This document shows positions 7,615-21,027 of a DNA stretch of 22,533 nucleotides, piece by piece. The DNA is taken from the IMG/VR virus record IMGVR_UViG_3300040807_002721, positions 1 through 22,533 of that record; one strand, given 5' to 3'. This DNA is from a virus. The first letter of the stretch is position 1, and every line of letters begins with the position of its first letter. Under the pieces are notes generated by a model. The model had not been told where the DNA came from. It did not search any database and saw only the letters and a list, made by a program, of their open reading frames with translations. The position numbers were made by a program, and so were the translations under genes.

Positions 7615-10600
7615 TTATGACAATGCATAAAGGTTAGGCGCTGCCTCACCTCCAAATGTCATTGCTTTTTGCTGTTCTATTTGCTGTAGAACGTCAGTCA
7701 TTGGACGCTCCATGCTCTGGCTGCCTTGGTCTGTCGTGATATTGTATTTCACGGACATACCGTTCGGATCCAAGCCGTTAGCTTGCAAGATTTGCTGATA
7801 AATAGGCTGACCTGCAATTTCTCGCATAATCTGCCAATATAACTCGCGCATCATTTCGCCGTTCTTTGCGTGTGTAGCAAAAGCATCGTGTGTGTGCATA
7901 AAGCCTGTTGCTCCAGCAGCACGCACGCGCTTAGCAAGTTCACGCTGAACGTAGGCATCAAGCGCATGGTTCAAAAATGCAGCAAAACCTGTAATTGCTT
8001 TCTTGTCTTGATAAACAGGAACAGCAACACGCTTGTCTTTGCCGATTTGCCATGTCACACGCCGCTTTGCGCTGTCTGGCAATTTACCTGTGTAGACAGC
8101 AACGTCTCCATCAGGCAGCGGCACACGGACTGCAAAGGCGTCTTGGCCAAGGCTGTTATACAAGCTTTGCGCAATAGATTTTGCGACACCTTCAGCCATA
8201 GCTGCACCGGGAAACCGTGAGTCAAATTGAAGCTCAAGATCATTTTGAATTTGTCTCAAACTATCTTTGGTTTCTTGTGTCCACTGCCCATTCTCGTCAC
8301 GCTCGGCATAAGAAGGCACTGACTTTGCTATCTCATCTGCACCAGATTTGAGTGCCGTGAGCTTAACTTGCCCATAGCTTCGTCTGTTGCTAATGAACTT
8401 CTTAGTGATCTTGCGTGTTTTTGACTGTGGCAAATCTAACGCACGCTGCAGATACTCAGCGCCAGGACGATATAAATCACCGCCTGGACCGTCAGGATCC
8501 ATGGGTCCAAGATTTGTTTCCTGCGCAAGATTAGCGTCGCCTGTTAGCACCGCGTGAAGTTGGTACGAAGACGAAGTGCCATCAAACCAGACTGGATAGC
8601 TAGAGCGAAAGTCAGCAAGCGCCTGCTGCGCCTGTGGCATCATGAACAGCTCGCTAGAAGGAATTTTCTTGGCACCGTCAATGACGTTTTCAAGATAAGA
8701 CCTCATACGCCCTAACTCTACAGCAGCACGTTGGATTTCAAATCCGTGTTCTGCGACATCGAACAAAGCGTGGTTTTTCTGATAAAGTGTTGAACCACTT
8801 TGCTTATCTAAAAATAGCTTTGGCGTGCCACCGCGTGTGTGGCTGTAGACGTAACTTCCGGGCTGACCATATGCGTTTACAAGATAATCAATCAACGGAA
8901 GTTCTAGGTCTGCTTGTGGAATGCTATCGCTAGCTGGGCGACCTGCAAGTGTAAGGTACTGGCTTACAGTCCCAAAAAGGAAGCCAGCTCTTTGGCTATA
9001 CGGCAGCTCGTTTGAAATACCAAAATGGTCACGCATACTATGAAGCATTTGCTCAAAGCCTGTGTCACCAAGAGGTTCCCAGTTTGGAAATTCCCAAATG
9101 GCTTTGCCAGCCTTGCCTTGATACGAAGCAGAGCCATTCAAAGTATCTACGCGCAACCGATCTTGTGCACGCCGTTTCATGAACAGCGGCGTCATGCCTC
9201 CACCTTCGCCTTGGTTGTCCTTAAACTGTTTCAAGGCTTCTGCAGCAGCTAGCGTATAAGCGCTATCTGTTGTGCCATCTTTTTTAAACACAAGATCAAG
9301 ACCACGATGGATTTGTGGCGTCGACTGCATTTTGTCCATCATCTCGTATATCTTGTCGTTGATTACGAGACCTTGTTTTTGTTCGCGTGTTATGAAGGCT
9401 TCAGTGTTGTCGTAGTTTCCAAACGGATGGCCATTGATTTCAATTTTGCCTTCCCAGTGGGTTGGCTTAGCTCTGTTTTCGAATTTACGAATGTTGTTGA
9501 GCTCAGCCTTGGCCACTAATTCTGGAAGCTTGGGTACCAGCATGTGGACAGGGTACATACGACCTCCAGCGGAGGTTCTGAAGGCAAGACCAAAGTCATC
9601 AATAATGTCAGACTTTTGCAGCGCTTTTAGAAGCACAAGAAAGTCTTCGCGATAATTATTAACAACGTCGTCTACTTCAACGTCAGGATTTGATCCTGTG
9701 TCGACAACACCTGCGTCGTCCATAACACCAATAGCACGCAGATAGTCTGCAGCCACCATGCCTATGTCAGTGTTGGGTGTAATGCGAGACAGAGTCTTTT
9801 TAAGTACCTCTGGCGTTACACTTGGCAAGTTTAGATTTTCGGCAATGTTCGTTACAGCTGTGTTGAACTGCTCGTTTACGATTGGTGTTGTAGCTTTTGC
9901 AGATTTTGCTTGTTCTTGAATTTTGTCGAGCAAAGCAAGACGCTTGGCGACCATTGGTCCACCAGGCTTGTCTTTCTTTGCGTAAGCAATGTCAGGAACA
10001 TACAAGCTGTCGTAATGCTCATTAATTTGGCGCTGATAAGTTTTGCCTGTATAGACATCGTCCAAGATGTTGTTGACGTTTGTAAAGCCATTGCCATCAA
10101 TGAGGTTTTTGAATGCCTCAATAAGATCTTTGATGCGCGACAGAATATATTTAATTCTGCCCATATCCTCACCGCGAACTTCTTGTAAGCGTGCTGATGT
10201 CTCAGCAAGACCTTCAAGCATTTTAGCGGCGTTGTTTAAGTCAGGATAAAGCTCGTCAACTTCTTTCATCACATCGCTGTATATTGAGTGCGATTTGATG
10301 ATGTTCATCTCTTCTGGTGTAAGTCTGTTTTCCACAGCATGGAAAATTTCGTGAAGCACCTTGCGCTTGTCACCGTCAGATGTGAGCGTGATGAGTTCTT
10401 GGCGACGATAGTAAGCGTCGTCGCTTGCATTGAACTGCACTTTTACGCCGTTGCCCAATGCGTCAGCTACAAGCTGTGCACGTTGTGCGTCGGTGATTTT
10501 GTTGCCAGCTTTGTGAAGCGAGCGAGATCTAAAGATGTCGGCTTTGTCTAAAGCTGTAGGCGACAACACATATTCATTTATTGTTTTGCCAAACGGAGCT

Positions 10601-13143
10601 TTGTACGGCTCAGTCTTGATCATGCCATTGCGTTTAAGCTGATTAAAGACTTTTTCAGGCCACATCATTGTAATGCGGCCATTGTCATTTGTTTGCAGTG
10701 TTGCTTGTGCAAAGCTATCTGCATCTGCTGGATCGACTGCTGCAAACACAGAAGGTGTAGAAAAACCAGACGCGTCAATCGAAGCTGCTGCACTTTTACT
10801 TGTGCCGTGATTTAAAGCAACCATACGATCGCCGTACATCTCGCGGCCAGCGTCCATTTCTTCTTGAATTATGTCGCCGCCTGGCACACCAAATCGTGAC
10901 TCTTGCTTTGGACCATATTCAGTCAGAGCCGGAAGCACCCTATTGATATAATCTTTGTGCTCTGGGTAGTTTTCTAACGCTTCAAGCCTTTTAGCTTCTT
11001 TAACAACTTTTGTGCGAGCGTTAGCAATGCTGTTGGCAACTTGAGCCAGTTCAGGCGTCGGAGCGCTTGCCACAGCGACTTCAGCAGTGCGCATAGCATT
11101 GTCAATAGTCGCTTGGTAAGCTGGCGCATTGTATATATTAGATGGTGCAGCGTTTGAGACACCGACACCAGACCGCAGCATCGGCTGCGCTGTAGAATTG
11201 ACATTAACTTCCATGCCGAGCTCTTCGGCTCGACCCTTTATTGCGTTTTGTAAATTGTAATATTCACGCGACTGGTCACCTACTCGCTGCCCTGTTTTCA
11301 AGCTCTCTTCATAGCTTTTGATAGTTGGGGCAAGGTCAGGGCGCGTGCGCTTCAGGCTTCTAAGTACAACAGCGGTTTGTTGTCTGTTGAGACCAGTGTA
11401 AGCCTGCATGTTTGCTTCAGCGCCACTGGTGGTCTCATAGCCTGCTTGTAGGTTGCTTATGTTCTGTTGCTGCAGGTTAGCTGCCTGTGCAGCTTTAGCG
11501 CGCCTCAGGACATCAGATTTGGCTGCTGAGTCAGCTTCATTTTGCTGAGTTTGGCCTAGGCCTGTAGTATCAATGCCAGGACGATTAGAGTAGGCCTTGA
11601 TTGCTTTATTGACGCGGTTGCGGTTGCCTGTAACAGCGTCTACTACGCGACCACCAACGGAAGCACCAAGAGTAAGTCCACCTGAATAGGCAGCTAGCGC
11701 AGATGCACCAGTTGCCTGCATACCGCCTACACCACGGCCAAAAGTGCCTGTCTTTTTCAGACCCTCGATTGGGTTGAGAAGATCTGTGTATTTACTTACG
11801 CCGCCTTTGACACCTTGTTGTGTAAAGCGAGTGATGACGTTGAGTTTTCGTGCAAGAGCCGCCAACTCAGGATCGACACTGTTAAGATAATCGATGTCTG
11901 CATTTGAGGCTTCATTCTTAGCTCTGTTTTTAGCGCGGCGCTCAGCAGTTTTAAACTCTGCAGTTTGCGTGTCGACACCAGCGTTTTCAGCACGTTTCTT
12001 AGCGGCGTCAAATTGCTTCATGTAGCTCGTGTGCAAATCTCGTATTGTTGCGTCTGCATCATCAAGGCTTTTGGTCGGGTTGCGGTCGTTGTACTGGCTT
12101 GCAAGTTGCGCTACATCCCGAGAAACGTCAGCCAAAGCTTGCGTGTCGCCTTGGTGTATTTTTTTGAGACCGTCCATGCTGCCTGCTACATTGACAGCCG
12201 TATTGGCAGTTTCAGACATTGTCTGTGAACCACCGCGGATAGTTCCACCAGCCGCCATACCAGCTGCGCCAGCTTCTTTTAGACGTGTGAAAATCTCGTT
12301 GTCTGCGAACTCTTTGCCAGCATAGGCTTCAGTGGCAATTTTTACGCCTTCTTGAGCTGTTTCGGTCAAGCCCTCGGAAGCCATGCCTGTTGCAAACGCC
12401 CCAGCAATGCGACCCATGCCTCGCTTTTTAAGCAGCTCTGACACACCATTAACGCCAAGCTTGCCTACAACTTCCTTTGGCATGCCTTTTAAAACGACAC
12501 CAGCACCAAGGTTTTCTAAGGCAGCCATTATCATGCCGCCAGCTGTTGCATAGCGGACTTGTTGATCAAGCGTGAGACCTTCGATCTCTTTCAAAGACGC
12601 GTTGACTTCGCCGCTTGTGATAAGAGGTGTAACAATTGGAGCAGCAACTGCCGCAGCCATAGCTGGAGCAGACTCAGCAGTCTTTTGAAGACCAAACTGC
12701 AACGCTGAGCCTAACCCAGTAATGTCGTCTGTTGTCAGTGATCTGTAGTTCAGAGCATCTGCTTGCTGGCGTTGGGTTTCAGCTGCAGCGCGTGCCTGTG
12801 CTTGAAACTGAGCGTTGACTTCATCATTATTGATAGGCTCAAAACCAAAAAACTCGCGAACAGGGTTGCCAATATATTGCTGGCCTGCGCGTGTCATGTC
12901 GCCAATGAAACCTTGGTTCATTGCTTGGTTAGCGTCTGCTGCATAATCTGCAACATTGGCTCGGTTCATTAAATCGCCGTATTGAAAAGCAGTGCTTAGC
13001 GAAGTGTCGCCAGCTGGAGGTTGCCCCATGCTTGCGATGATTTCTTCTACAGTTTTCTGCTGATCCTCAGGAGACAGTTGGTTGAAACTATCGTCCACTT
13101 TAATAGTCGGATAGCCGTCGATGTTTAGATCGAGCTGACCCAT
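7615..13143 (-). CDS. Giant internal virion protein with single-subunit (T7/N4-type) RNA polymerase domain
   Basis: This protein has 1842 residues. The N-terminal region contains Ala/Gly-rich hydrophobic stretches (about 158-178 and 465-500), as in ejected internal proteins. An ADP-ribosyltransferase-like segment starts at H779 ('NHGTSKSAAASI', then 'VFAAVDPADADSFA'). A zincin HExxH, HEIFH, lies at 931-935 with E938 nearby. The C-terminal third matches T7-type RNA polymerase. Motif A is 'WFDGTSSSYQLHAVLTGD' with D1521, followed by 'DLY' at 1556-1558 (T7 'DIY'). Motif B is 'RKITKKFISNRRSYG' with R1577, K1581 and Y1590-G1591. Motif C is 'THDAFATH' with H1752-D1753 (T7 'HDSF'). It follows two other probable ejection proteins, the slot of T7 gp16, so it is probably packaged and injected like N4 virion polymerase. 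Motif spacing is compact (A to C 232 residues; T7 275) and B has one extra residue, so activity is likely but unproven. The Shine-Dalgarno is CGGAGACGCCT. Confidence 0.8.
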   Translation of the reverse strand: MGQLDLNIDGYPTIKVDDSFNQLSPEDQQKTVEEIIASMGQPPAGDTSLSTAFQYGDLMNRANVADYAADANQAMNQGFIGDMTRAGQQYIGNPVREFFGFEPINNDEVNAQFQAQARAAAETQRQQADALNYRSLTTDDITGLGSALQFGLQKTAESAPAMAAAVAAPIVTPLITSGEVNASLKEIEGLTLDQQVRYATAGGMIMAALENLGAGVVLKGMPKEVVGKLGVNGVSELLKKRGMGRIAGAFATGMASEGLTETAQEGVKIATEAYAGKEFADNEIFTRLKEAGAAGMAAGGTIRGGSQTMSETANTAVNVAGSMDGLKKIHQGDTQALADVSRDVAQLASQYNDRNPTKSLDDADATIRDLHTSYMKQFDAAKKRAENAGVDTQTAEFKTAERRAKNRAKNEASNADIDYLNSVDPELAALARKLNVITRFTQQGVKGGVSKYTDLLNPIEGLKKTGTFGRGVGGMQATGASALAAYSGGLTLGASVGGRVVDAVTGNRNRVNKAIKAYSNRPGIDTTGLGQTQQNEADSAAKSDVLRRAKAAQAANLQQQNISNLQAGYETTSGAEANMQAYTGLNRQQTAVVLRSLKRTRPDLAPTIKSYEESLKTGQRVGDQSREYYNLQNAIKGRAEELGMEVNVNSTAQPMLRSGVGVSNAAPSNIYNAPAYQATIDNAMRTAEVAVASAPTPELAQVANSIANARTKVVKEAKRLEALENYPEHKDYINRVLPALTEYGPKQESRFGVPGGDIIQEEMDAGREMYGDRMVALNHGTSKSAAASIDASGFSTPSVFAAVDPADADSFAQATLQTNDNGRITMMWPEKVFNQLKRNGMIKTEPYKAPFGKTINEYVLSPTALDKADIFRSRSLHKAGNKITDAQRAQLVADALGNGVKVQFNASDDAYYRRQELITLTSDGDKRKVLHEIFHAVENRLTPEEMNIIKSHSIYSDVMKEVDELYPDLNNAAKMLEGLAETSARLQEVRGEDMGRIKYILSRIKDLIEAFKNLIDGNGFTNVNNILDDVYTGKTYQRQINEHYDSLYVPDIAYAKKDKPGGPMVAKRLALLDKIQEQAKSAKATTPIVNEQFNTAVTNIAENLNLPSVTPEVLKKTLSRITPNTDIGMVAADYLRAIGVMDDAGVVDTGSNPDVEVDDVVNNYREDFLVLLKALQKSDIIDDFGLAFRTSAGGRMYPVHMLVPKLPELVAKAELNNIRKFENRAKPTHWEGKIEINGHPFGNYDNTEAFITREQKQGLVINDKIYEMMDKMQSTPQIHRGLDLVFKKDGTTDSAYTLAAAEALKQFKDNQGEGGGMTPLFMKRRAQDRLRVDTLNGSASYQGKAGKAIWEFPNWEPLGDTGFEQMLHSMRDHFGISNELPYSQRAGFLFGTVSQYLTLAGRPASDSIPQADLELPLIDYLVNAYGQPGSYVYSHTRGGTPKLFLDKQSGSTLYQKNHALFDVAEHGFEIQRAAVELGRMRSYLENVIDGAKKIPSSELFMMPQAQQALADFRSSYPVWFDGTSSSYQLHAVLTGDANLAQETNLGPMDPDGPGGDLYRPGAEYLQRALDLPQSKTRKITKKFISNRRSYGQVKLTALKSGADEIAKSVPSYAERDENGQWTQETKDSLRQIQNDLELQFDSRFPGAAMAEGVAKSIAQSLYNSLGQDAFAVRVPLPDGDVAVYTGKLPDSAKRRVTWQIGKDKRVAVPVYQDKKAITGFAAFLNHALDAYVQRELAKRVRAAGATGFMHTHDAFATHAKNGEMMRELYWQIMREIAGQPIYQQILQANGLDPNGMSVKYNITTDQGSQSMERPMTDVLQQIEQQKAMTFGGEAAPNLYALS

Positions 13144-13167: not shown

Positions 13168-14553
13168 TTAGTTTGTTGGGGTGCTTACTGAAAAGCCGAC
13201 ACCTGTAGATGTAGTGCCAGTAGCTGCAGAAGCGCCGTCATCAATTCCGCCGTTTGCTGCGTAAACTTGCAAAACTTGAGCTTTCATAGCCTCTAAGACC
13301 GCATCCATTTTAGGATCATACCCAGCTAGTGAGCCATTGTTTGAGTTGTAATATTCAACTTTTTGCTGTCTTGCTTTTAAAGCAGCTTCAGCAAGCATGG
13401 CTAACGCTTTTAAGCGTTTTGCATTCATTTGCGGCGGCAAAGTAGGATTGTATGCTCTGTCAATAAGCAACATGCCTTCTCTTTGTGTAAATTGAGCACC
13501 AAGTGTTTGTCTTAAATTTTGCTGAATCACACCAGCTACAATTTGTTGCTTGTCAATGCCTTCTTGATCTAAGAGTGCGCGTAATCCCATATCGCCTTCT
13601 CGATCAAGAATTCTGGCAGCAGATACAAGAGGACTGGAAAGAGAAAGCCCTGTAGAGTCTCCGGCTTGTTCAGTCGCAAGCTCGTCAGCGATCATTGACA
13701 AAACGCCAATATTACCTGCGGCTTGCTCAGGTCTAAAAGTTTCTAATTCTTTAGCAAAAGTTTTGTCTCGCTGTATTTCAGCTTCACTTAACGCACGATT
13801 GACGCCTGGATTAATTTTGTTGTTTGCTGTTAAAGTTGGTTTTTGTGCAGCTTTAAACGCAGCAATTGCAGCAGGTGAATATTGATCTGTTACATCTTCG
13901 TCTAACCCTGTGTATGGGTTGGTGCGCATTACTACACCAGTTTCGTGGTCTCCTACCCAGCGCGCATTATTTGTTTTGCCTTGAAGAAGGTCCTGTTGCG
14001 TTTGTGCATTTTGCAAAGCTTGAGTTTGGTTTTGCAAAAGCTGTCCTGCATTTTGGTTGCGCTGGTTTTGAGCAAGAAGAGGGTTCATCACATCGTTTTG
14101 AGCAATGTTTTGCTGTGTTGACTGATTGCTCAAGTTTTGCCCCTCGTTTCTCAATGTTTGAGCAGAGAGTTCCCCGGGCAACTTTTGCTGGGTGATGTTC
14201 ATATTTTGCTGAGTTTGGCGCATACCAAGCTCTGTTTGGGCACGGTTCAAATCATCTTGGCGAAGTTGCCGCTGGTCCATTGCACGTTGTCTAAAGCGAT
14301 CGCGTATGCCGGACTGGTAGTCAGTAATTGCACCAGACATGTCTTTGCCTTGAAGTGCTTGCCCAAGCATCATTAGCTTCATGCCTGTGTCCATGTTACG
14401 CGGATTTGCAGCGTTATTTACGTAGTCGGCATAGGCAGGATTAAGCTGCATAGAAGTGTTGCCGTCTTGGTACACTTGCATATAGGGAGACGGCGCATCT
14501 GCCATTGATTGCGACAGAGCACCCTGTGATTTGAAAAGGTCAAATAGCCCCAT
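13168..14553 (-). CDS. Internal virion / DNA-ejection protein (461 aa)
   Basis: This 461-residue protein has a strongly Gln/Asn-rich helical middle (about 90-190) and a C-terminal module containing 'QTLGAQFTQREGMLLIDRAY' followed by 'NPTLPPQMNAKRLKAL'. That 'LG-x-QFT-x-x-EG...Y-P-L-P-x-x-N-x-R' pattern is one I associate with DNA-transfer/ejection proteins of P22-like and marine podoviruses. Such proteins are stored in the head and form the trans-envelope conduit. It overlaps the upstream internal protein gene by 14 bases and is followed by the giant polymerase-bearing protein. The start ATG at 14553 has the Shine-Dalgarno CGGAGGACCTC. Confidence 0.72.
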   Translation of the reverse strand: MGLFDLFKSQGALSQSMADAPSPYMQVYQDGNTSMQLNPAYADYVNNAANPRNMDTGMKLMMLGQALQGKDMSGAITDYQSGIRDRFRQRAMDQRQLRQDDLNRAQTELGMRQTQQNMNITQQKLPGELSAQTLRNEGQNLSNQSTQQNIAQNDVMNPLLAQNQRNQNAGQLLQNQTQALQNAQTQQDLLQGKTNNARWVGDHETGVVMRTNPYTGLDEDVTDQYSPAAIAAFKAAQKPTLTANNKINPGVNRALSEAEIQRDKTFAKELETFRPEQAAGNIGVLSMIADELATEQAGDSTGLSLSSPLVSAARILDREGDMGLRALLDQEGIDKQQIVAGVIQQNLRQTLGAQFTQREGMLLIDRAYNPTLPPQMNAKRLKALAMLAEAALKARQQKVEYYNSNNGSLAGYDPKMDAVLEAMKAQVLQVYAANGGIDDGASAATGTTSTGVGFSVSTPTN

Positions 14554-15709
14554 GAGGTCCTCCGTACTGTTTTATGGCTTTATCCATGAAATAGCGGATG
14601 ACGCGCTTCAGCTTTGGCTTGTTTGCAATAAAGACAGCAAAGCGCTCGCCGTACTTGGCGTATGCGCTGTGAAGCCAGCGAGGGGAGTCGAAGTACATCC
14701 AGTGGCGGAACATGCGCCAGCGGTAATTATATGGACCGTAGACCTCGCGTGCGACCCAGCAGAACAACGTCATGCCTGTGCCGACAATGTTTGCAACTTG
14801 TCCAAATTTATCCAAAGTCGAAGGCTGGCTTTGTGCGCCGCTGTAGCCTGCACTGCCACTAAACCCACCAAGCGGATTAAAGAGCTGCATGTAATTGCCA
14901 GCAAGTTGCAGCGGGCGATCTTGGCCCATATAGAATTTGTTAGCGGCGTCGTCCATAGCACCTTGGTTAAACAAGCGCATAAAGTTGCCAGCAGCGCCCA
15001 TGTCGTTAAGTGCACCAGAGCCAAGTCCGTAGGCTGAGTTCATGGTCGTGAAAGCGTTGTTGTTCGCGTTCATCAGCTGATTTAAGGCGTTAGACTGCTG
15101 ATTAATGTTGTTGTTGTATTGGCCGACACCCTGATTAAAGAGGCTGCTTCTTACTTGGCTGCCGAGGTCCATGATGTTCTCTGCGGCACGGCTTTTGAGC
15201 ATGCCTGTCTCTAAGCCAGCGCGATTATTGTTTGTGTTGCCACCACCAACAAATCCTCGCTCAAGGCCTGCTAGATCCATGCCAAGATTTCGTTGAACGT
15301 CGCGCGCACCTGCATCAATCATGCTGTTGGCCATTGGTGAATTTGCCAAGGCGTTGCCCATGTCAAATGCAGCGTTAGGATTTTGTAAAAGACCGCCAAA
15401 AGCAGCAATGCGAGTGCCATAGTCTTTAGTGGCGTCATAATTGCCTTGAGCACCACCCATGGTATTCTGCGCAGCGTTTAGACCCATGTTGCCAATTGTT
15501 CCGGCCATGTTGTAGTACTGCTGCTGCATAGGGTCGAGGCCAGCATATGTTTGGCCGCCATAAACAGGGTTTGCTAAAGCATTAAGTACTTTGTCTTGTA
15601 GACCACCCTGAATTGGCCGCAGGGCATCTTGGTACATGTTGAAAGCACTTTGAGCGATAGGATCTGTGGCCTGTGTCACTCTTGGCTTCGATGAAAATAA
15701 GCTACCCAT
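14540..15709 (-). CDS. Internal virion protein with conserved aromatic C-terminal module (389 aa)
   Basis: This 389-residue protein is Gly/Asn/Ala/Met-rich over about 300 residues with many short repeats. It then ends in a basic aromatic module: 'FCWVAREVYG', 'YRWRMFRHWMYFDSPRWL', 'YAKYGERFAVFIANKP'. I recall this WVAREVYG-type tail on internal virion or ejection proteins of many podoviruses and prophages. The frame opens at 15766, but ATG 15709 (MGSLFSSKPRVTQATD) is the likely start. It has the ribosome site TTTGGAG eight bases upstream and overlaps the previous stop by only eight bases. Its place before two other large internal proteins suggests the T7 gp14-gp15-gp16 arrangement. Confidence 0.72.
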   Translation of the reverse strand: MGSLFSSKPRVTQATDPIAQSAFNMYQDALRPIQGGLQDKVLNALANPVYGGQTYAGLDPMQQQYYNMAGTIGNMGLNAAQNTMGGAQGNYDATKDYGTRIAAFGGLLQNPNAAFDMGNALANSPMANSMIDAGARDVQRNLGMDLAGLERGFVGGGNTNNNRAGLETGMLKSRAAENIMDLGSQVRSSLFNQGVGQYNNNINQQSNALNQLMNANNNAFTTMNSAYGLGSGALNDMGAAGNFMRLFNQGAMDDAANKFYMGQDRPLQLAGNYMQLFNPLGGFSGSAGYSGAQSQPSTLDKFGQVANIVGTGMTLFCWVAREVYGPYNYRWRMFRHWMYFDSPRWLHSAYAKYGERFAVFIANKPKLKRVIRYFMDKAIKQYGGPHGAI

Positions 15710-16001
15710 TGTTTTGTCTCCAAACCCATATTTCTGTGCCGCCTTCGAGGGTGCGAAGAGGCTCAAATCCGAACATTTTCAGGAATTTTGCGTGTTTCTT
15801 GTCTGCTGGATCGTGCTGAGCATGGATCGGCCCGCCGTGGGCGGTCTTAACGAGATGCCAGCCTGAGCGGAGCATCTCTTTGACAAGTTTTGACCATTTT
15901 GTGTGGATGTCGCAGTGTGCAAAGGTGCCATAGCCTGCGACTTGCTCAAGATAGATGGTGTAGCACCACCTTCGAGCAACAGGAACTTTGAGGAGGTGCA
16001 T
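15702..16001 (-). CDS. GNAT-acyltransferase-like small protein in the virion module (99 aa)
   Basis: This is a 99-residue protein (100 if ATG 16004 is used; the GGAGG site spaces better to 16001). The C-terminal 'KKHAKFLKMFGFEPLRTLEGG' followed by 'EIWVWRQ' resembles the end of GNAT acetyltransferases, where a helix precedes a 'GF' strand. The canonical acetyl-CoA loop (Q/R-x-x-G-x-G/A) is not visible, so it may be catalytically inactive or a minimal version. Acyltransferase-like proteins are known in the internal-virion modules of T7-like marine phages. Its start overlaps the stop of the 56-aa gene (ATGATGA). The function is uncertain. Confidence 0.65.
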   Translation of the reverse strand: MHLLKVPVARRWCYTIYLEQVAGYGTFAHCDIHTKWSKLVKEMLRSGWHLVKTAHGGPIHAQHDPADKKHAKFLKMFGFEPLRTLEGGTEIWVWRQNNG

Positions 16002-18773: not shown

Positions 18774-19032
18774 TTTAGGATCTCCGTAGTTTTTGTTGGG
18801 GCGCAATGCAGCAAGGAACACCCAACAACAACAATCCCCAACTTTTTCGAAGTTGCTTTTCGTCAATCATTTTGTATTCAAAAACGAAAAAGGGAGCCAA
18901 AAAGATGAATGTTTACAATCATTTATGAGTGTGTGAGACAAAGTGTGATTAGATATAGTATCTAATGACTGTGGTTGGACGAGTTGGATATATTTTGTGG
19001 GCCAAAACGTTTTTGAGAAAAAATAATTTCGA
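18774..19032 (+). other. Divergent control region between structural and plus-strand clusters
   Basis: This is the only stretch where the two transcription directions diverge, so the promoter of the minus-strand virion cluster should lie here. I see an inverted repeat GTTGGGG/CCCCAAC (18795-18801 and 18836-18842), a short CAACTT/AAGTTG hairpin around 18840-18856, and a perfect palindrome at 18949-18965. I see no convincing -35/-10 pair on either strand and no credible gene. Small starts such as the ATG at 18905 run only seven codons. Confidence 0.5.
18949..18965. promoter_or_regulatory. Perfect inverted repeat, candidate operator
   Basis: TTAGATA and TATCTAA flank a TAG spacer in the divergent region, a 7-bp perfect arm pair typical of dimeric repressor or activator sites. 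It lies 67 bases before the first plus-strand repeat element. No regulator gene is recognisable in this window, so the binding partner is unknown. Confidence 0.4.
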
Positions 19033-19060
19033 ACGCAAATTTCAAGTCTTTATGGACAAC
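19033..19060 (+). promoter_or_regulatory. 28-bp repeat element, copy 1 (candidate phage promoter)
   Basis: This copy has ACGCAAATT, variable hexamer TCAAGT, then CTTTATGGACAAC. All five copies have the same length, conserved flanks and a variable middle. Each lies 15-18 bases before the translated start of the first gene in its module, with a Shine-Dalgarno between. The ATGG inside the element is not a start, because the reading frame and ribosome site point further downstream. In this copy I see no hairpin in the register found in copies 3 and 5. Confidence 0.7.
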
Positions 19061-19078
19061 AAACATGAGGACATTGTG

Positions 19079-19302: not shown

Positions 19303-19329
19303 AAGAGGCTTCGGCCTCTTTTTTTTTTT
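19303..19329 (+). terminator. Intrinsic terminator, module 1
   Basis: The stem AAGAGGC / GCCTCTT closes on a TTCG tetraloop and runs into at least ten T residues, then CGTTT. It starts five bases after the gene's stop. It is an extra-stable UUCG hairpin, as in modules 3 and 4. Confidence 0.93.
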
Positions 19330-19343
19330 CGTTTAAAGTTCGA

Positions 19344-19371
19344 ACGCAAATTTGAGCTCTTTATGGACAAC
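19344..19371 (+). promoter_or_regulatory. 28-bp repeat element, copy 2 (candidate phage promoter)
   Basis: This copy has ACGCAAATT, variable hexamer TGAGCT, then CTTTATGGACAAC. It begins 15 bases after the end of the preceding terminator T-run. The leader AAATATGGAGCGAAAA carries the ribosome site for the metalloprotease-like gene. Confidence 0.72.
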
Positions 19372-19388
19372 AAAATATGGAGCGAAAA

Positions 19389-19856
19389 ATGCCAAAATTC
19401 ATTCAAGTTCGTGAAGACGTTTTTGCAACTGGTTCAGTCGCATGTGACTTCAAACAAACTCGTGAGTTTTATCGTGCAAATATTGACGACATGATCAAAG
19501 CATTTGATGAATGCAAAAAGATCTTCAAAGTCGACAATGTGAAAATGTTCGTGAGAAATCTTCGCAAACACCAAGGCACATATTCAAATGCCAAAAAAGA
19601 GATTGCGATCGACATTCGCAAATATGATCTTAGACAAATTGTGTCGACTATCATTCACGAAATGACACATGCACAACAATTCGAATCCAAAAAGATGGCG
19701 TACAAAAATGGCAAAGTGGTATTCGCAAAAAAAGAATATACACAAGTCAAAGCATCAAAGGATTTCGAAGCGTATCAAAACCAACCATGGGAAATCGAAG
19801 CGCGAGAAATGGAAGCGAAATATATCGATCGTGTGATGAAAGCGATTTCGAAATGA
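19389..19856 (+). CDS. Putative zinc metalloprotease-like protein (155 aa), module 2
   Basis: This 155-residue protein contains 'TIIHEMTHAQQF' with H90-E91-M-T-H94, the zinc-binding HExxH of zincins. A downstream 'NQPWEIEARE' (131-140) offers E135 or E137 as third ligand. The HEMTHAxQ plus PWEIEA pairing recurs in small stand-alone phage and bacterial zincins. The N-terminal half is basic and helical ('VKMFVRNLRKHQGTYS'). There is no signal peptide, so it should act in the cytoplasm. The ATG at 19377 belongs to the ribosome-site region (ATGGAGC), so I place the start at 19389, six bases after GGAG. It is the sole gene of its module and likely early. The substrate is unknown. Confidence 0.8.
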   Translation: MPKFIQVREDVFATGSVACDFKQTREFYRANIDDMIKAFDECKKIFKVDNVKMFVRNLRKHQGTYSNAKKEIAIDIRKYDLRQIVSTIIHEMTHAQQFESKKMAYKNGKVVFAKKEYTQVKASKDFEAYQNQPWEIEAREMEAKYIDRVMKAISK

Positions 19857-19862
19857 AAATAT

Positions 19863-19899
19863 GAGAGAGATGACGAAAGTTGTCTCTCTCTTTTTTTTT
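19863..19899 (+). terminator. Intrinsic terminator, module 2
   Basis: The 12-bp stem GAGAGAGATGAC / GTTGTCTCTCTC includes two wobble pairs and closes on a GAAA tetraloop. It is followed by nine T residues. It differs from the TTCG type of modules 1, 3 and 4 but has the same placement just after the stop codon. Confidence 0.92.
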
Positions 19900-19977
19900 C
19901 AACGAAAACGAAGAAAAAACGCGACTCGTTAAAAGTCAATCAATTTATTATTTTCAAGACATCGCTCTTTAGTTGAG

Positions 19978-20005
19978 ACGCAAATTGCTGCGCTTAATGG
20001 ACAAC
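19978..20005 (+). promoter_or_regulatory. 28-bp repeat element, copy 3 (candidate phage promoter)
   Basis: This copy has ACGCAAATT, variable hexamer GCTGCG, then CTTAATGGACAAC. CGCA (19979-19982) can pair with TGCG (19989-19992) around a six-base loop, the same register as the longer hairpin in copy 5. The preceding spacer (19900-19977) is longer than in the other modules and holds no gene I can see. Confidence 0.72.
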
Positions 20006-20018
20006 TAAGGAGAGACTT

Positions 20019-20123: not shown

Positions 20124-20374
20124 TGCCTGAAATCATGTTCAACCTAAAATTGACTGCGTATCCGGACATCGAAGACAATGAATTAGAATGTGTCGAATAT
20201 CCGTTATTAAGCATTCAAATTCACGACACAGGCGGTTTTACTGTCGTTGAGATGATCCCAACGCGATACACATCAGAAGATGGCCAAGAATACGATTTTG
20301 TGTTTTCTCACACTTTCTACCATCTTAACGACGCTATCAACCATCTAAAAGAAATCATAGCCAACAAGAAATGA
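20123..20374 (+). CDS. Hypothetical acidic protein (83 aa), module 3
   Basis: I do not recognise this 83-residue protein. It looks like a small alpha/beta domain with strands 'IMFNLKLTAYP' and 'LLSIQIHDTGGFTVVEMIPT', and a C-terminal helix 'LNDAINHLKEIIANKK'. It has no cysteine pair, membrane span or catalytic motif. CGGAGG lies six bases before the ATG, and the start overlaps the stop of the 34-aa membrane gene, so the two are coupled. The terminator stem overlaps its stop codon. Confidence 0.78.
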   Translation: MPEIMFNLKLTAYPDIEDNELECVEYPLLSIQIHDTGGFTVVEMIPTRYTSEDGQEYDFVFSHTFYHLNDAINHLKEIIANKK

Positions 20375-20397
20375 GCGCTTCGGCGCTCTTTTTTTTT
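20373..20397 (+). terminator. Intrinsic terminator, module 3
   Basis: The stem GAGCGC / GCGCTC closes on a TTCG tetraloop and is followed by nine T residues and CGT. The stem begins inside the TGA stop of the preceding gene, which shows how compact these modules are. Confidence 0.93.
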
Positions 20398-20410
20398 CGT
20401 AAATGTTCAG

Positions 20411-20438
20411 ACGCATTTTTTGGCTCTTAATGGACAAC
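20411..20438 (+). promoter_or_regulatory. 28-bp repeat element, copy 4 (candidate phage promoter)
   Basis: This copy has ACGCATTTT, variable hexamer TTGGCT, then CTTAATGGACAAC. It starts about 13 bases after the previous T-run. The leader carries AGGAGG for the downstream gene. The internal ATGG opens a false upstream start in the gene's frame region. Confidence 0.72.
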
Positions 20439-20452
20439 CACAGGAGGCACGA

Positions 20453-20941: not shown

Positions 20942-20967
20942 GAGGGACTTCGGTCCCTCTTTTTTTT
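20942..20967 (+). terminator. Intrinsic terminator, module 4
   Basis: The stem GAGGGAC / GTCCCTC closes on a TTCG tetraloop, followed by eight T residues and CGT. It lies 33 bases after the stop. In between, GCGTAA (20903-20908) and TTACGC (20930-20935) form a second possible weak stem. Confidence 0.92.
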
Positions 20968-20983
20968 CGTCCGTTTGTTTTGG

Positions 20984-21011
20984 GCGCATTTTTTTGTGCC
21001 TTATGGACAAC
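20984..21011 (+). promoter_or_regulatory. 28-bp repeat element, copy 5 (candidate phage promoter)
   Basis: This copy has GCGCATTTT, variable hexamer TTTGTG, then CCTTATGGACAAC. With two upstream bases it can fold a 7-bp hairpin, GGGCGCA (20982-20988) with TGTGCCT (20995-21001), around six T residues. It drives the only four-gene module. Confidence 0.72.
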
Positions 21012-21027
21012 AAACATGGAGGTCGTA

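Follow-up and report, generated by a model that had tools for sequence, protein, structure and literature searches.

In this study, a giant protein of 1842 amino acids (aa) encoded by an uncultured marine phage was found to end in a domain that is very likely a single-subunit RNA polymerase (RNAP) of the T7 family, since the profile matches, the invariant catalytic residues and the predicted fold agree; RNA synthesis itself is inferred, without an enzyme assay. The gene lies in the window, namely the whole 22.5-kb stretch of DNA that was analyzed, a fragment from a phage group with no cultured member. Because a T7-family RNAP is fused here to a giant protein in the slot of ejected virion proteins, we infer that the phage probably injects a transcription enzyme along with its DNA. 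No packaged single-subunit RNAP demonstrated outside the N4-like phages was found in the literature searched, which did not cover most subscription papers, and the absence of a report is not proof. With N4-like phages as the only shown case, it has been hard to tell which features the strategy needs. A second, apparently unrelated case sharing the absence of cysteine, the fusion to an ejection protein and a second T7-family RNAP makes these features testable as general rules. The new polymerase is half the size of the N4 virion RNAP (vRNAP), offering a compact enzyme together with candidate promoters, and it suggests that the start of transcription in integrase-bearing phages of abundant marine alphaproteobacteria can rely on an enzyme that the phages carry themselves.

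Table 1. Features of the window, in order of position.
Feature	Position	Strand	Evidence or remark
Giant virion-type protein with C-terminal RNA polymerase, 1842 aa	7615..13143	-	ORF, PHROG and Pfam profiles, 0 Cys
Single-subunit RNA polymerase domain (very likely), residues ~1181-1842 (last ~660)	7615..9600	-	PF00940 35.1 bits; AF2 model; PDB matches
C-terminal YALS	7618..7629	-	Same ending in N4 and LIT1 RNAP2; T7 ends FAFA
Motif C, FMHTHDAFAT (1748-1757), H1752-D1753	7873..7902	-	ORF translation, alignment, model
Motif B, R1577...K1581...Y1590-G1591	8371..8415	-	ORF translation and alignment
Motif A, PVWFDGTSSSYQLHAVLTGD (1517-1536), catalytic D1521	8536..8595	-	ORF translation and alignment
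HEIFH, residues 931-935, zincin-like motif	10339..10353	-	Invariant; SprT-like 7.1e-5 in homologue L046
Hydrophobic segments 158-176 and 200-218, candidate membrane contacts	12490..12672	-	Hydropathy only
N-terminal tag, residues 6-43	13015..13128	-	Common with 'structural proteins' of other podophages; RHph_N3_2 63% identity, 3e-6
461-aa protein, 0 Cys, second candidate ejection protein	13168..14553	-	Position
DNA ejection protein, 408 aa	14540..15766	-	phrog_4287 5.2e-13
Class I promoter-like element 1	19025..19070	+	PWM score 53.0
Terminator-like hairpin before element 2	19303..19320	+	
Class I promoter-like element 2	19336..19381	+	PWM score 53.9
Terminator-like hairpin before element 3	19863..19890	+	
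Class I promoter-like element 3	19970..20015	+	PWM score 44.1
Terminator-like hairpin before element 4	20373..20388	+	
Class I promoter-like element 4	20403..20448	+	PWM score 41.2
Terminator-like hairpin before element 5	20942..20959	+	
Class I promoter-like element 5	20976..21021	+	PWM score 39.7

The identification of the domain rests on profile searches in which the Pfam family RNA_pol (PF00940) was matched at E=8.8e-9, with 35.1 bits against a curated cut-off of 22, and two PHROG families annotated as RNA polymerase were matched at 1.8e-10 (phrog_2051) and 6.5e-10 (phrog_414). Four more divergent homologues also passed the Pfam cut-off. Residues D1521, R1577, K1581, Y1590, G1591, H1752 and D1753 were invariant in 28 aligned sequences with identity down to ~59%. 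The comparison of the domain between the window and homologue L002 gave a dN of 0.095 and a near-saturated dS of 2.9, and the domain is under strong purifying selection. Its catalytic competence is inferred from the intact invariant residues, with no enzyme assay. Two details depart from the expected pattern: the gap from K1581 to Y1590 is one residue longer than in T7 RNAP and N4 RNAP2, and the T/DxxGR motif is ambiguous, as the candidate TSAGGR (R1195) lies 331 aa from motif A with its R replaced by V or K in some homologues, and GRP at 1401-1403 is an alternative candidate.

The fold was predicted by AlphaFold (AF2) from 28 sequences for residues 1290-1842 only, with moderate confidence (pLDDT 75.4, pTM 0.76); an earlier model, covering 661 aa and resting on 13 near-identical sequences, reached a pLDDT of only 48 and was set aside as poor. 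In the model, motif A follows a strand (model residues 228-231, with the Asp at 232) and motif C forms the turn of a strand-turn-strand unit (459-461, HD at 463-464, 466-469), both as known for T7 RNAP. The top 50 Foldseek matches in the PDB were all single-subunit RNAPs, including yeast mitochondrial RNAP (4.6e-9), T7 RNAP (3.4e-7), N4 RNAPII (6.9e-6) and human mitochondrial RNAP, whereas a PDB search by sequence gave no significant match. In a viral structure library, the best matches were phage DNA-directed RNAPs, with N4-like vRNAPs appearing only near 4e-3. The query-normalized TM-scores of the matches discussed were modest (0.33-0.53); therefore, the model shows the fold and not the details. 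It supports a predicted palm and fingers architecture, and the distance between the catalytic Asp residues was not measured. The fold matches also included a 1463-aa viral protein (BFVD A0A7S5FRK7, 1.2e-6), possibly another long RNAP-containing protein.

The packaging and ejection of the protein are likely but inferred, without virion proteomics, from gene position, the N-terminal tag and the absence of cysteine. The gene sits in the morphogenesis cluster between the terminase gene and two ejection-type genes. Residues 6-43 match the N-termini of entries named 'structural protein' in Rhizobium and Paracoccus podophages, with 63% identity (3e-6) for the best. No cysteine was present in the 1842 residues, and the 17 further sequences examined had none either (17/17, 13 of them longer than 1700 aa), whereas ~15-18 would be expected at the genome-wide frequency and about 5 at the frequency of the window's structural proteins. 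By comparison, cysteine counts are 9-13 in the T7-like RNAPs that these phages also encode, 9 in the 404 residues of N4 RNAP2 (gp16) and 0 in the 3500 of N4 vRNAP. As several structural proteins of these phages likewise have none, this absence is a strong sign but not one restricted to ejected enzymes, giving support and not proof, and we read it as a sign of function, not of homology.

These results can be set against the first-pass annotation, which was made from sequence alone. The 1842-aa reading frame (7615-13143, minus strand) and the motif positions that it gave all held (D1521-G, QLHAVLTGD at 1528-1536, DLY at 1556-1558, R1577, K1581, Y1590-G and H1752-D1753), and its domain boundaries of 7615-9600 fit residues ~1181-1842; the T/DxxGR motif was absent from its list. 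Its claim that a giant protein of internal-virion type ends in a single-subunit RNAP held on profiles, invariant residues and fold, with the virion location remaining inferred. The check by profile search and structure prediction that it proposed returned RNAP profiles and a predicted single-subunit RNAP fold with a palm. Its claim of two other probable ejection proteins held only in part, since only the product of 14540-15766 has profile support and the 461-aa protein had no family match in the profile search.

The remainder of the giant protein is less conserved than the RNAP part, as shown by the comparison of homologues, and a search for N-terminal relatives without the RNAP domain found none. 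The HEIFH motif did not vary in any homologue covering that region, and the giant protein may possibly carry an additional zincin-like domain; the SprT-like metallopeptidase match in homologue L046 is weak and under the cut-off. By eye, residues ~777-815 (window 10699-10815, minus strand; LNHGTS...GF...VFAAVDPADADSFA) resemble an ADP-ribosyltransferase-type motif, and an inserted segment at residues ~805-990 of homologue L008 has a similar appearance (YHGGTP...YTSADPTQAEVYA); Pfam gives no support for this resemblance in either. Comparison of L013, L019 and L020 with the window showed that some homologues have a different, MATLQQIESALLAAHEAGN-like N-terminal tag instead. Such swapped tags might reflect exchangeable packaging or ejection signals.

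Concerning the affinity of the polymerase, alignment of the RNAP domain by hhalign was closest to N4 RNAPII gp16 (1.2e-12), followed by T7-like RNAPs (9.4e-10). Against N4 vRNAP, it gave only 0.16 with a probability of 0.4%, the level of unrelated controls (0.21 for the DNA polymerase PolA and 0.018 for the portal). The ExDGxxxG signature of N4 vRNAPs (PMC10654107) is missing at motif A, where WFDGTSSS is found instead, and matches to it occur only in L046 and L047, in both cases outside motif A. The DxDGD motif of two-barrel RNAPs of the P23-45, crAss and phiKZ type was tested and is absent. In the tree, the virion family forms one long branch (4.45; support 100/100), placed weakly near or among the N4 RNAP2 (gp16) proteins; the phages' own T7-like RNAPs group with those of T7, HTVC019P and CRP-113, and the virion lineage is not their sister. 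These data show that the family is a lineage distinct from both N4 vRNAP and the T7-like RNAP that the phages themselves encode, with its exact origin unresolved because the branch is long and the placement support low.

The closest functional parallel is N4 vRNAP (gp50, Schitoviridae), likewise a giant cysteine-free protein of the ejection set with a single-subunit RNAP, in a phage that also encodes a second T7-family RNAP. By analogy, the new protein would work like a virion RNAP without belonging to the N4 vRNAP family. The two show no detectable sequence relation, the RNAP lies mid-protein in the 3500-aa N4 enzyme and at the C-terminus here, and family lengths are ~2842-3820 aa for N4 vRNAPs versus ~1715-2003 aa for full-length members of the window family, in which the RNAP is C-terminal. 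Moreover, the window phages have SU10-type head genes, and no repeated hairpin promoter was seen in them. N4 RNAPII gp16 shares the closest profile, a similar motif A (DxTSSxxQ...LTGD), the YALS terminus and, through N4 RNAPII, a place among the fold matches, but it is a free 404-aa subunit with 9 cysteines, acting with gp15 as a non-virion middle RNAP. The autographivirus RNAPs (T7, SP6, HTVC019P, CRP-113) share the superfamily, motifs A, B and C and the palm fold, but are free enzymes of ~780-880 aa with 10-14 cysteines, produced after infection, and the window's relatives carry one as well. P23-45 gp96 is also an RNAP fused to a giant virion protein in a phage with a separate non-virion RNAP and a similar programme (PMC10770324); in contrast, its RNAP is of the two-barrel type, has DFDGD and occupies the N-terminus of the tape measure protein of a long-tailed phage. 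The crAss-like phage phi14:2 and phiKZ/AR9 also package RNAPs, but these are two-barrel single-chain or multisubunit enzymes of unrelated fold (from the literature; only DxDGD was tested here). The 'putative vRNAP' of StenR_269, argued from size, cysteine absence and helices (PMC10747016), and the Poorviridae vRNAP claim, resting on PSI-BLAST (PMC11654794), are not directly comparable.

The domain is carried by about 30 IMG/VR contigs with 59 to 100% identity to the window. A tblastn search of 50,697 phage genomes gave no match at 1e-5 (records very near the window were possibly excluded), a relaxed-threshold search gave only weak RNAP2/T7-like matches, a scan of bacterial (GTDB) genomes found no copy, and IMG/VR pattern scans with motifs A and C yielded no more distant members recognized by the domain profile. 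The related phages have genomes of ~40 kb in which the portal, capsid and adaptor genes are SU10-type, and they also encode a T7-type primase-helicase, PolA, an exonuclease, thymidylate synthase, ribonucleotide reductase (RNR) and a tyrosine integrase. A separate ~835-aa T7-like RNAP was present in all six relative contigs of at least 32 kb (G001-G005 and G007), that of G001 being about 32% identical to T7-group RNAPs; its gene is not within the window. The portal (PF23899) and major capsid protein (PF17236) are SU10-type and not N4-type by Pfam, and N4-like gene order is absent. The remark of the first-pass annotation that such an order was not obvious thus held, and its suggestion of a separate lineage of packaged polymerases is supported by the lack of detectable N4 vRNAP similarity, with 'packaged' still inferred; it could not include the relatives' second RNAP or the promoter cassettes. 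A tRNA-Arg(ACG)-like 3' segment adjoins the integrase gene, and the 65-nt form taken from G003 has exact copies in 29 genomes whose titles mark them as alphaproteobacterial, many of them SAR116/Puniceispirillum. The host is therefore probably a SAR116-like alphaproteobacterium; both host and integration site are inferences, since they are based on matches of this segment.

A 46-nt element, here called class I, has the consensus TTcgaACGCAAATTT-N5-CTTtATGGAC and occurs in 5-8 copies per genome upstream of small genes, in a divergent cluster on the strand opposite to the structural genes. Four of the five copies in the window are preceded by a same-strand terminator-like hairpin, and sigma-70-like sites in this stretch number 3, compared with 8.2 expected by chance. 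The PWM scores are in-sample for the genomes used to build the motif; in G007, which was left out, six copies were found in the small-gene cluster and one before the integrase. No class I element was found in six control records, among them HTVC019P and a portion of CRP-113, both of which have a T7-like RNAP and no known virion RNAP. A conserved class II element (AAGCCGCACTWWAG) precedes the T7-like RNAP and RNR genes, and a third conserved stretch is located before the structural operon. Compared genome-wide with the T7 promoter, class II was the best match in G001 (17/23) and joint best in G007 (16/23), and other copies reached only 13-14/23; being strong in two genomes and average elsewhere, it was rejected as a T7 promoter. 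N4-style hairpin promoters with a 3-nt loop showed no consistent excess over shuffles. In G003, a strong sigma-70-like promoter (TTGACA-18-TAAAAT) precedes the T7-like RNAP gene, and host RNAP may therefore start that gene without the virion enzyme.

We propose a model, likely overall but without virion proteomics, enzyme assay or a cultured member, in which the giant protein is a packaged and ejected T7-family RNAP for early transcription, following the N4 pattern (PMC4496689, PMC12633501). The head would hold a few copies, which would leave through the tail together with the two smaller ejection proteins. Of each copy, the first ~1150 residues would remain with the envelope channel, and the RNAP domain would refold at its cytoplasmic mouth and transcribe the incoming DNA from class I elements (core TTCGAACGCAAATTT-N5-CTTTATGGACAAC) into short early mRNAs. 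The T7-like RNAP would then take over replication and late genes, possibly from the T7-resembling class II elements. A comparable order is known for P23-45, whose tail-tape-fused RNAP transcribes the pre-early genes, including that of the second RNAP (PMC10770324). The early-transcription role is probable by inference; that class I elements are the promoters of the virion RNAP is as uncertain as a balanced guess, since no assay links the polymerase to the element.

Several rival explanations were considered. The one closest in weight is that class I elements serve the T7-like RNAP as promoters, or else host RNAP together with a phage factor, and that the packaged enzyme uses other, unidentified sites. 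No assay ties any polymerase to any element, and the AT-rich stretch followed by GGAC in class I loosely resembles T7-type start regions; we lean slightly against this reading, because class II is the best or joint-best T7-promoter match in G001 and G007 (though not in its other copies), and the controls with a T7-like RNAP lack class I. It is also conceivable, but unlikely, that the packaged enzyme mainly pulls the genome into the cell by transcribing, with host and T7-like RNAPs making the useful early mRNAs. The sigma-70-like promoter of G003 would fit, and transcription coupled to DNA entry has been discussed for the N4 and P23-45 vRNAPs (PMC12633501, PMC10770324); however, the promoter-gene cassettes without sigma-70 character fit dedicated early genes, and the two roles are not mutually exclusive. 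The fused domain might instead be a relic, or act as a structural plug, with an RNAP-like fold but non-catalytic or never packaged. This appears very unlikely: the ambiguous T/DxxGR motif and the one-residue insertion in motif B speak for it, and the invariance of the catalytic residues in 28 sequences, the strong purifying selection and the higher conservation of the RNAP part over the N-terminal part speak against it.

Two rivals concern descent, and both appear highly unlikely. A shortened N4 vRNAP acquired from a Schitovirus would explain a cysteine-free giant encoded beside two smaller ejection proteins in both cases, but there is no profile similarity (0.16), ExDGxxxG is missing at motif A, the RNAP is C-terminal without a large domain after it, and the length is half. 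Duplication of the T7-like RNAP within these phages, a history that has been proposed for the pair of RNAPs in P23-45, would agree with two T7-family enzymes occurring together in six long contigs, but in the tree the copies of the T7-like enzyme cluster with T7, HTVC019P and CRP-113, and the virion lineage stands apart as a long branch (4.45; 100/100). Returning to the preferred model, a bolder form would be an origin independent of N4, in which an RNAPII/T7-type polymerase became joined to an ejection protein of a podophage. The integrase-bearing marine phages concerned would use two polymerases of their own with two families of promoters, and the ejected enzyme would drive the promoter-gene-terminator early cassettes with no help from host RNAP. 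As a joint claim, this could fall either way; full independence from host RNAP is not claimed, because of the G003 promoter and because no experiment links element to polymerase.

Some minor observations concern the small-gene cluster and the integrase. A perfect inverted repeat, ATTAGATA-N3-TATCTAAT, lies between this cluster and the structural genes (window 18948-18966) and is also perfect in G002, G003 and G004; it may be an operator or a hairpin, and its role is unassigned. The small cassette gene at window 19377-19856 (plus strand) has a putative metallopeptidase match (DUF6782 1.5e-5, SprT-like 8.6e-4), just under the curated cut-offs. Finally, a class I-like element coincides with the integrase start or lies just before it in G001 (39479), G002 (28825), G003 (38156) and G007 (3820). 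In two of these, G001 and G003, the element continues into a terminator-like hairpin, as though to attenuate transcription at that point.
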